A stretch of DNA of 64,000 nt from Nocardioides cynanchi (GTDB lineage: Bacteria; Actinomycetota; Actinomycetes; Propionibacteriales; Nocardioidaceae), in the NCBI RefSeq assembly GCF_008761635.1, contig NZ_CP044344.1, positions 62,001 through 126,000 of the forward strand, in the 5' to 3' direction. Below the pieces are notes generated by a model. That model was not told where the DNA came from, made no database searches, and worked only from the letters and a program-made list of their open reading frames with translations. This document shows positions 61,321 to 64,000 of this stretch, piece after piece; the first letter of the stretch is position 1, and the number at the start of each line of letters is the position of its first letter. A program made the position numbers and the translations under genes.

Positions 61321-61356
61321 CCCGCGCAGTCGCCGGGTGCTGGCAGGATCGTGGCC

Positions 61357-62232
61357 GTGCGCCACGTCTACGAGTGCCCGATGCGACGCGCCGACCTGCA
61401 CCCCGGCGGGACGGTGAACAACGTCGTCTTCGCCGACTACCTCCAGGAGGCGCGGCTCGACCTGCTGCGCCGCCACGACACCCAGGTCTCGCCCCAGCCG
61501 GGCGAGGGCCTGGTCGTGGTCCGCACGACGCTGGAGTACCTCGCCCCACTGCGGCTGTCGTTCGCCCCGCTGCGGATCGAGACGTGGGTGGTCGAGGTCC
61601 GGGCCGCGTCGTTCACCCTCGGCTACGAGCTGACCACGCACGCCGACGGCGAGGAGCCGCTCGTCCACGCCCGCGCCACGACCGTGCTGACGCCGTTCGT
61701 CTTCTCGGCCAACCGCCCGCGCCGGCTCACCGCCGAGGAGCGCTCGCGGCTGGCAGTGGGCTGTGAGCCCTCGACCGTCTCCGAGGTCGAGCGTCGTCGT
61801 CCGGCCCCGTGGGGGGGCGGCGCCTTCACCCGGCCGGTGCACGTGCGCTTCTCCGACATCGACCTGCTCGGCCACGTCAACAACGTGCGTTACCTCGACT
61901 ACCTCCAGGACGCGCAGACCGATCTGGCCGTCGGCGTCTTCCAGGAGGCGCGCATCAACGGGACGGTGGACCTGGTGGTCGCCCGCACGGACATCGACTA
62001 CCTCGGGCAGATGAACCTGCGTCCGGAGCCTTACCTTGTGTGGGGTCGGGTCGAGGAGGTCGGCTCGAGCTCGGTCACCTACGAGCTCGAGCTCCGTGAC
62101 CACGACCGGGTGATGGCCAGGAGCCGGGTGGTCAGCGTGAACATCGGTGACGACGGCCGCGCGGTGCCGATGCACCCGCGCCACCACGAGCTGTTCGAGG
62201 AGCGACGAGAGGCCGCGCGCCTCACGCCGTGA
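61357..62232 (+). CDS. Acyl-CoA thioesterase with two hotdog domains
   Basis: The 291-residue protein repeats the 4-hydroxybenzoyl-CoA thioesterase-type hotdog fold: first VYECPMRRADLHPGGTVNNV...FADYLQEARLDLL, then VRFSDIDLLGHVNNVRYLDY with the catalytic Asp and the signature HVNNxxYLxY. The first copy has degenerated (GGTVNN for GHVNN), so catalysis probably rests on the second. GTG 61357 fits a CAGGAT -10 at seven bases; GTG 61351 is possible. It ends 11 bases inside the sigma gene. Confidence 0.9.
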   Translation: MRHVYECPMRRADLHPGGTVNNVVFADYLQEARLDLLRRHDTQVSPQPGEGLVVVRTTLEYLAPLRLSFAPLRIETWVVEVRAASFTLGYELTTHADGEEPLVHARATTVLTPFVFSANRPRRLTAEERSRLAVGCEPSTVSEVERRRPAPWGGGAFTRPVHVRFSDIDLLGHVNNVRYLDYLQDAQTDLAVGVFQEARINGTVDLVVARTDIDYLGQMNLRPEPYLVWGRVEEVGSSSVTYELELRDHDRVMARSRVVSVNIGDDGRAVPMHPRHHELFEERREAARLTP

Positions 62233-62785
62233 GGACGACGCCCAGGCCACGGAGCCGGCGCAGGCCGCGGTGCCGGGCGACCCGCACGGCGGAGGCCGAC
62301 ATCCCCAGCGCGGCGCAGGTGGAGGGGACGTCCAGGCCCACTACGTCGAGGCAGGCCACGACCTGACGCTCGCGCTCGGGCAGGTGGCTCAGCAGCCAGG
62401 CGACCCACCCGTCGGAGTCGGGACCGGCGCTGGCGTCCGGGGCCGGCTCCCGGGCCGAGAGGTCCAGGATCTCCACCGAGGTGGGTGAGGTACGCCGCCG
62501 GCTCGTCCGGCGCTGGGCGTTGCGCAGGAGGAGCCGGGCGATCCCGAACAGCCAGCCCGCGAACTCGTCCGAGGTGCCGTCGAAGTCTGCGATCTTGCGG
62601 GCGGCGGTGAGCCAGGCGTCGGCGGCGACGTCCTCGGCGCTCACGCCGGCGTCGCGCGTGGGCTGGGTGTCGAGCCAGACGACGAGGCGCCCGGCGTTCG
62701 CCTGGTAGAGGGCGCGCCACGCCGCGTGATCTCCGTCCTTGGCCAGAGCGATCGTCTCGTCATCGGCCGTGACGACGGTGCTAAT
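62222..62785 (-). CDS. ECF-family sigma factor, probable ATT start
   Basis: The 187-residue protein has region 2 (ALAKDGDHAAWRALYQANAG; VAADAWLTAARKIADFDGTS; FAGWLFGIARLLLRNAQRR) and region 4 (LLSHLPERERQVVACLDVVG; TCAALGMSASAVRVARHRGL). The obvious start GTG 62644 would remove half of region 2. The only upstream option is ATT 62785, overlapping the previous stop as ATTAG with GAGGGG eight bases before it. If ATT is right, the sigma factor is translationally coupled to the acidic protein gene upstream. Confidence 0.85.
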   Translation of the reverse strand: MSTVVTADDETIALAKDGDHAAWRALYQANAGRLVVWLDTQPTRDAGVSAEDVAADAWLTAARKIADFDGTSDEFAGWLFGIARLLLRNAQRRTSRRRTSPTSVEILDLSAREPAPDASAGPDSDGWVAWLLSHLPERERQVVACLDVVGLDVPSTCAALGMSASAVRVARHRGLRRLRGLGVVLTA

Positions 62786-63476
62786 CGGCGACGCCCCTCA
62801 GGCCGCTGCCGTCGTGACCACTGATGTCCGAGCTGGTGCCGGGGCTGCTGTCGCCGCCGCCGTCGCTGCCGCCATCAGTGCTGGGGGTGCTGTCGCCGCC
62901 GCCGCCGTCGCCCCCGTCGCCGCCGCTGTCGGACGGCTCACCGGTGGGACTCTGGCTGGGATCGTTGCTGGAGCTCTCGGTGGGCTCGCTGCTGGGGTCC
63001 TCCGTGGGATCCTCGCTGGGGTCCCCGCCACCGTCCGTGCTGGGGTCGCCCGGGCCGGGGTTCGGGCCGGGCAGCGGACCGTCGGTGGTCCCCGACGTGA
63101 CGGTGCCGACGGGAGTCGTGGCCTCGACGTTCCGGGTCGCGGCGTCCGACCGGTGGCGCCGGCCGGCGCCGACCGGGTCGCCACCGCCGTCGCTCGAGGC
63201 GGAGTCCGAGGCGGTGGGCGAGCTGGTCTCCTGGGTGCCGATCGGCGGACTCGGCAGCGGGTGGGAGTGGTTCATCTGCCCTGCGGCCACGGCGGTCCCG
63301 GCCGCGATCGCGGCCACCGCCGCTGCCGCTGCCAGTGAGCGTCCGGTCGCGCCCCCGAGGACGGCGACGCCCGATGGGGTCGGGCGAGAGGCGCGCGCGA
63401 GCTCGGAGAGCCGAGCGACGAAGGCGTCGTCGGGCTCGAGTGTCGGTGCGTCGCACCGCAGGGAGGTGATCGTCAC
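62781..63476 (-). CDS. Membrane protein with acidic low-complexity domain, possible anti-sigma-like
   Basis: The 231-residue protein has a short cytosolic part (LEPDDAFVARLSELARASRP, about residues 14-34), a membrane helix (RSLAAAAAVAAIAAGTAVAA, about 46-65) and a long extracytoplasmic Ser/Pro/Asp/Gly-rich tail (repeats such as DPSEDPTEDPSSEP, GGDGGDGGGG), ending GSGLRGVAD. Cytosolic part plus one helix, coupled to an ECF sigma gene, is the layout of anti-sigma factors, but no zinc anti-sigma motif is visible. Confidence 0.72.
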   Translation of the reverse strand: MTITSLRCDAPTLEPDDAFVARLSELARASRPTPSGVAVLGGATGRSLAAAAAVAAIAAGTAVAAGQMNHSHPLPSPPIGTQETSSPTASDSASSDGGGDPVGAGRRHRSDAATRNVEATTPVGTVTSGTTDGPLPGPNPGPGDPSTDGGGDPSEDPTEDPSSEPTESSSNDPSQSPTGEPSDSGGDGGDGGGGDSTPSTDGGSDGGGDSSPGTSSDISGHDGSGLRGVAD

Positions 63477-63563: not shown

Positions 63564-64000
63564 TCAGCGAAGGCCGTCGCCGCTGTCACCGCCACCGCCA
63601 CCGCTGTCGCCGGAGCTGTCGCCGCCGCTGTCACCGGAGTTGTCACCCGAGCTGTCACCGGAATTGTCACCGGAGCTGTCGCCGGAGCTGTCCGTACCGT
63701 CGCTGGAGCCGTCGCCGGGGGTGTCGCCCGAGTCGTCGCCGTGGTCGTCACCGGGGTTGTCGTCACCGGGGTCCTCGCTCGGGTCCTCGGTGGGGTTGTC
63801 CGTCGGGTTGTCGGTCGGCCCGTCGGTCGGGTCCTCGGTGGGCTCCTCCGTCGGTTCTTCCGTCGGAACGTCGGTGGGGTCCTCGGTCGGGTTGTCCGTG
63901 GGGTCGTCCGAGGGGGTACCGGCGGTGGTGCCGCTGGTACCCAGTTGACGCCCATGGCTGTGGATACGAGCGCTGCCGTGGTGTCGGTTCAGACCGTCCT
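63564..64000 (-). CDS. C-terminal part of an acidic low-complexity protein (partial)
   Basis: The frame is open from the right edge to TGA 63564-63566. After about 25 unremarkable residues (RHHGSARIHSHGRQLGTSG) it becomes PT-E/D-DP repeats (DDPTDNPTEDPTDVPTEEP and similar), then GD-SSGDN-type repeats, ending GGDSGDGLR. The tail resembles that of the next gene (DGSGLRGVAD). It is probably an extracellular protein with a disordered stalk; its N-terminal domain is outside the window. Confidence 0.75.
   Translation of the reverse strand, partial: DGLNRHHGSARIHSHGRQLGTSGTTAGTPSDDPTDNPTEDPTDVPTEEPTEEPTEDPTDGPTDNPTDNPTEDPSEDPGDDNPGDDHGDDSGDTPGDGSSDGTDSSGDSSGDNSGDSSGDNSGDSGGDSSGDSGGGGGDSGDGLR

Follow-up and report, generated by a model that had tools for sequence, protein, structure and literature searches.

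An ECF sigma factor gene of Nocardioides cynanchi most likely translated from an ATT codon that overlaps the upstream stop codon

Results

The sigma factor gene and the ATTAG junction

The window, that is, the whole 64,000-nucleotide stretch of the Nocardioides cynanchi genome that was analyzed (contig NZ_CP044344.1), carries a putative operon on its minus strand near the end. The first gene of this operon, of which the window contains a part (63564-64000), encodes a Pro/Thr-repeat protein and starts just beyond the window. The genes that concern us are an upstream partner of 231 amino acids (62781-63476) and a sigma factor of 187 amino acids as counted from an ATT codon (62222-62785), both on the minus strand. 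The sigma protein matches the Pfam models of sigma-70 region 2 (PF04542, residues 46-97, 32.9 bits with a cut-off of 24) and region 4 (PF08281, residues 131-178, 33.8 bits with a cut-off of 25.7), and the occurrence of both regions in a protein of this small size, together with the reading frame and the predicted fold, identifies it as an ECF sigma factor. A sequence search of the Protein Data Bank with this protein gave nine matches, none of which covers residues 1-40. At its 3' end, the gene overlaps a convergent thioesterase-like gene on the plus strand (61351-62232) by 11 bases (62222-62232); the corresponding pair at the sister locus L038, described below, overlaps by 8 bases.

The sigma reading frame is open over 62222-62797, from the TGA at 62800-62798, which is its upstream limit, to its own stop. 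The original prediction held that no in-frame ATG, GTG or TTG lies between the upstream stop and GTG 62644, and the translation of the frame agrees: this GTG is codon 48, 47 codons past the ATT at 62785-62783. The prediction was also right that the sigma homology reaches upstream of this GTG, as both the homology and the first predicted helix start ~40 codons ahead of it.

The proposed ATT start (62785-62783, codon 1) lies within the sequence ATTAG, where the T at 62783 is common to the ATT and to the TAG (62783-62781) that ends the upstream gene, giving a gene overlap of 5 nt. A Shine-Dalgarno-like GAGGGG lies eight bases before the ATT, at 62799-62794, and both the overlap and this element were found where they had been predicted. 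Stop codons begin with T and canonical start codons end in G; therefore, a 5-nt overlap of the ATTAG kind is impossible for ATG, GTG or TTG and, with the upstream gene in its given frame, any start codon that meets the stop by this geometry must end in T. Relative to the upstream frame, that of the sigma gene is shifted by +1, such that GAT (62786-62784) would be followed by AGC (62782-62780) in the sigma frame. A rival candidate start, GTC at 62773-62771, is codon 5 of the same frame.

The upstream partner and a conserved promoter element

The upstream partner has a short N-terminal segment with the motif LEPDDAFVARL, one hydrophobic stretch as judged by eye, a low-complexity tail and a single Cys. 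The N-terminal motif was found upstream of 30 of the 135 loci collected in our survey, a count made with one strict pattern that includes duplicates and leaves looser relatives outside. The partner has no Pfam match over the cut-off and no NCBIfam match, and no anti-sigma domain of Pfam was found in the partner or in three related proteins. From its position and likely topology, our guess is that the partner is perhaps a membrane-type anti-sigma factor.

Upstream of the sigma loci and on the sigma strand, we observed a promoter-like element, GTAAC-N15-YGACARG, at 42 of 128 loci and at 30 of the 38 loci having at least 1300 upstream bases, while control searches at the same 128 loci gave no antisense match and no match to the reversed pattern. 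A slightly longer form of the element has one perfect match in the genome of the window, at G000:C1:126192-126219 (64192-64219 in window numbering, just past the window's end), beside the gene that opens the putative operon. The only other match in this genome, with one mismatch (L214, G000:C1:235835-235862), is followed 58 bases on by a DUF4956 gene, itself overlapping a gene with a VTC domain, and may mark a second target. The element, also written as GTAACGC-N13-YGACARGTA, stands in front of many sigma operons of the genus. Its strictest form gave 21 matches in 118 genus genomes, each in a different genome, while the reversed control gave none; not all of these matches lie at sigma loci (for example, L216, L229 and L230). 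This conserved ECF-type promoter element suggests that the putative operon is autoregulated and that the sigma factor is functional.

Start codons of the related sigma genes

For comparison, 58 related genomes, 215 genus genomes and a public genome collection were searched for sigma loci. The 135 loci examined are the window gene, 15 loci from the 58 related genomes, 22 and 90 from the 215 genus genomes and 7 from the public collection, which held at least 50 loci; the other 43 were at most 40% identical and were left out. Removal of seven duplicates left 128 distinct sigma loci. Two of these were kept in the start count and excluded from the tree: L023, whose coding sequence falls into two frames, and L188, which has a short upstream stretch. 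L023 (G023:C1:3501705-3502215) was matched in two pieces and is perhaps a broken copy. The start of each relative was taken as the canonical codon nearest to position -18, searched from -13 to -26 codons before a conserved Trp.

In this range, 123 of the 128 loci have an ATG, GTG or TTG (22, 95 and 6 loci, respectively). The commonest position is -18 (66 of 123), the position to which GTC codon 5 of the window gene aligns, while a start at -22 is found in one relative. The chosen start is never closer to the Trp than -16, although many of the relatives carry a further GTG at -11 or -12. Among the 123 relatives, 83 have a long upstream frame ending nearby and 42 of these (42 of 123 overall) have an NTGA overlap with it; in the remaining 40, a long upstream frame with a nearby stop is absent. 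In L011 and L050, a stop lies at the same distance as in the window and is followed by GTG.

Five loci have no canonical start in the -13 to -26 range. L116 and L185 have canonical starts slightly further upstream, at -27 and -31, respectively. In L197 (G058:C1), a distant sigma relative, a GTG at -11 is the only ATG, GTG or TTG within 40 codons of the Trp, and this gene may have an odd start of its own. The other two are the window gene (L001), which has no canonical start anywhere in frame before the Trp, and L038, in which the sole canonical codon is an ATG at -12.

The sister locus L038 shares the ATTAG junction

In the 126-row tree, L038 and the window gene are sisters (support 100/99). 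L038 comes from a different species, whose genome is a draft of about 350 contigs with 90% completeness, and its sigma protein is 67% identical to that of the window. No closer relative was found among the matches listed for the 215 genus genomes, 341 family genomes and the at least 50 loci of the public collection. L038 also carries ATTAG, with the ATT in the sigma frame and the TAG closing the upstream frame, and the gene upstream shares its N-terminal motif with the partner in the window. Codons 5 and 12 are GTC and ATC, respectively, in both genes, while codon 11 is ATG in L038 and ACG in the window. The locus is flanked by a gene that we take to be globin-like and by a thioesterase-like gene, as in the organism of the window, where one extra gene intervenes. 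Among the loci examined, the ATTAG feature is carried by these two species only.

The original prediction had named orthologues with a different N-terminus as evidence against an ATT start, and the comparison came out partly against it: in 66 of the 123 relatives, the start lies four codons downstream of the ATT position.

Without gaps, the two genes are identical at 15 of the 30 bases before the ATT and at 32 of the 36 bases from the ATT on, and third-position changes are absent from the first 16 codons. Codons 1-13 offer 9.3 synonymous sites, none of which has changed, as compared with 70 changes in 142.3 sites after them, and the dN/dS of the pair, about 0.36, indicates that the sigma gene is under purifying selection between the two species. 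We considered the conservation as a means of deciding between ATT and GTC because 11 of the 12 bases before GTC codon 5 are identical, but dropped it, as 12 of 28 control sister pairs with canonical starts are likewise identical at 11 or 12 of the 12 bases just upstream of the start. The low synonymous divergence at the 5' end was also rejected as evidence for ATT, since 2 of the 28 control pairs are likewise without synonymous change in 13 codons. The conservation thus supports a start region at the ATT/GTC stretch and chooses neither codon.

Comparison of the candidate start codons

Shine-Dalgarno strength was scored as the strongest 9-base pairing to the 16S tail within 20 bases upstream of a codon; the tail sequence is present in the 16S gene of this genome. 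The ATT has an energy of -7.3 kcal/mol in the window and -6.9 kcal/mol in L038, the GTC at codon 5 has 0 in both, codon 11 has -1.7 and -1.5 kcal/mol, and codon 12 has -1.8 in both. Of the candidates, the ATT alone is preceded by a Shine-Dalgarno-like site in the two species. The starts of the relatives have a median energy of -7.0 kcal/mol and 121 of the 123 are at -1 kcal/mol or stronger; only L014, a near relative with a GTG start that has no Shine-Dalgarno site, and L182 are weaker. Random in-gene positions reach the window's -7.3 in 5.5% and L038's -6.9 in 8% of cases. As an off-start control, -6.9 was reached 12 bases after the relatives' starts in 22 and 12 bases before them in 23 of the 123 (about 18%), and in 26 of the 123 the true start has a weaker site than the position 12 bases upstream. 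The pattern expected of a GTC start, with a strong site 12 bases upstream and none at the start, occurs in none of the 123 relatives and that of an ATT start, strong at the start with nothing 12 bases on, in two. Taken together, the Shine-Dalgarno comparison favours ATT modestly, not decisively. RNA openness was rejected as support for ATT: in the two species, 60% and 77% of the compared stretches are predicted to fold more weakly than the one around the ATT, which is thus not exceptionally open, and in both the predicted fold is weaker around the GTC than around the ATT.

The predicted structure of the sigma protein (mean pLDDT 81, pTM 0.49; residues 1-10 mean pLDDT 65) places helix 1 at residues 7-16. 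Consequently, helix 1 would be truncated if translation began at codon 11 or 12, while in this model starts at the ATT and at the GTC both leave it intact.

The main rival to the ATT is a start at the GTC (62773-62771), which would have arisen by a G-to-C change of the relatives' GTG start, the ATT being merely sequence around the upstream stop. This GTC is retained in both sister species, and GTC is the proven, IF3-repressed start codon of sigR as described for Streptomyces (PMC5472188). Its alignment with the GTG of most relatives and this precedent make it a serious rival, to which the stop followed by GTG in L011 and L050 and the weaker predicted RNA fold also lend weight. However, the sigR GTC is described as having an extensive AGGAGGTG site (PMC5472188), while GTC codon 5 lacks any Shine-Dalgarno-like site in either species, in contrast to nearly all of the relatives' starts. 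On balance, we regard the GTC start as unlikely though well worth keeping in view. ATT is put above GTC because the Shine-Dalgarno comparison, together with the broader record of ATT as a documented start codon in infC, pcnB and cvfC1, outweighs the positional argument.

A start within helix 1, at the ATC of codon 12 (62752-62750) with the sister's ATG one codon earlier, would yield a shortened protein. The ATC is kept in both species, but this start would remove residues 7-11 of the predicted helix 1 and an Asp-Asp pair that is present in many relatives, the ATC has no Shine-Dalgarno-like site, and the starts chosen for the relatives lie upstream of the extra GTG that many of them have at -11 or -12. 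We therefore find this start improbable. It is more doubtful again that the sigma gene is decaying or its sequence wrong, so that the start was simply lost. The window gene does lack the family's usual start; nevertheless, two separate genomes have the identical ATTAG junction, which makes a sequencing error unlikely, the frame is intact and evolves at the dN/dS given above, and the promoter element is retained in both species. Finally, the original prediction offered a -1 frameshift fusion with the upstream protein as the alternative, but the sign was wrong, and the +1 shift needed to enter the sigma frame is highly improbable: in both species the upstream frame does end within that of the sigma gene, but the pair has no slippery codon in common (GAT-TAG and CAT-TAG), the shift in the window would be confined to 62797-62783, the fusion would export the sigma factor if the partner has one membrane helix with its tail outside (topology by eye), and the 123 relatives have canonical starts instead.

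In summary, we consider this an intact ECF sigma gene whose translation most likely starts at the ATT (62785-62783), a reading that we hold with somewhat better than even confidence. The ATT proposed by the original prediction is thus the best-supported single reading, by virtue of the junction in a second species and the Shine-Dalgarno-like site found for it alone in both, while the prediction had overlooked the GTC.

Discussion

Our reading is that the ATT would be decoded as fMet by ribosomes that have finished the upstream gene and restart at the junction, aided by the GAGGGG. Because ATT is a weak codon discriminated against by IF3, only a small share of these ribosomes would restart, and the sigma factor would be produced below the level of its upstream partner, possibly a membrane anti-sigma factor.

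The gene for IF3, infC, also bears on this model. In both genomes, infC (L203:1483 and L202) reads GGAGGACAC-ATC-AGC-ACC, the nearest in-frame GTG lies at least 11 codons upstream, and the gene most likely starts at the ATC. If so, non-canonical initiation and IF3 control of weak codons probably operate in this organism. We also observed that the ATC AGC ACC of infC, which follows a GGAGG, and the ATT AGC ACC of the sigma gene are alike in their second and third codons.

The closest known system is sigR-rsrA of Streptomyces. The GTC start of sigR, repressed by IF3, is described as the first documented GTC start, and the poor start codon is reported to keep the sigma factor below its anti-sigma factor; infC is reported to start at ATC in the same genus (PMC5472188). 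The window gene would share with this system a non-canonical start codon for an ECF sigma factor, a probable ATC start of infC and, likely, a lower amount of sigma factor than of its regulator. It differs in that its start is most likely ATT and not GTC, and in that its partner lies upstream, is apparently membrane-bound and has a single Cys, so that coupling would run from the partner to the sigma factor, the reverse of sigR-rsrA. Judged by the SigH/SigR model TIGR02947, the window gene is not a SigR orthologue: in its genome a separate gene, L204 (C1:1768642-1769187), is the only one that passes, and the listed matches do not include the window gene. The window case would thus resemble the sigR principle with another codon, in reverse gene order and outside the SigR group. 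The original prediction had suggested that an ATT start may keep the sigma level very low or link it to initiation fidelity through IF3, and both ideas, which are inferences, fit the sigR precedent.

ATT starts are known from other genes. In E. coli, infC and pcnB both start at ATT as proposed for the window gene, but neither encodes a sigma factor. The ATT start of E. coli infC and the autoregulation of IF3 are both reported in the sigR paper (PMC5472188). In S. aureus, the AUU start of cvfC1 has been mapped by ribosome profiling, with a reporter activity of about 10% of that of AUG in poor medium (PMC13009471). Unlike the window gene, however, cvfC1 is first in its operon and has a very strong extended Shine-Dalgarno motif, with no upstream stop involved. 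Termination-reinitiation has been tested for 14 gene pairs with ATGA or TGATG overlaps (PMC6728339), where stop and start share bases as in the window, but the 5-nt ATTAG is an overlap that ATG, GTG or TTG cannot form. Among the papers listed in our literature search, none concerned an ECF sigma factor that starts at ATT, and sigR was the non-canonical case found there. The best NCBIfam match of the window protein is ShbA (NF007230), a sigma factor reported to transcribe its own gene in vitro (PMC9205884), but membership was rejected, as the score of 76.4 bits is below the cut-off of 209.

More tentatively, and as a possibility to which we give less than even confidence, the lineage of the two species may have moved to an ATTAG geometry that is barred to canonical starts, tying synthesis of the sigma factor to translation of its membrane partner and to the stringency of IF3. 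This would be a second, independently evolved IF3-limited sigma factor in actinobacteria, with the coupling reversed in comparison with sigR-rsrA. Were the GTC the start instead, the case would be of similar interest, as it would extend the sigR GTC precedent beyond Streptomyces. The stop-overlap geometry also allows one to ask whether restarting ribosomes accept AUU better than fresh initiators do. If our reading of the ATT is true, it would suggest that IF3-limited initiation is a recurring means of keeping sigma factors scarce, and the window gene would mark a class of genes that are missed or truncated by gene finders.
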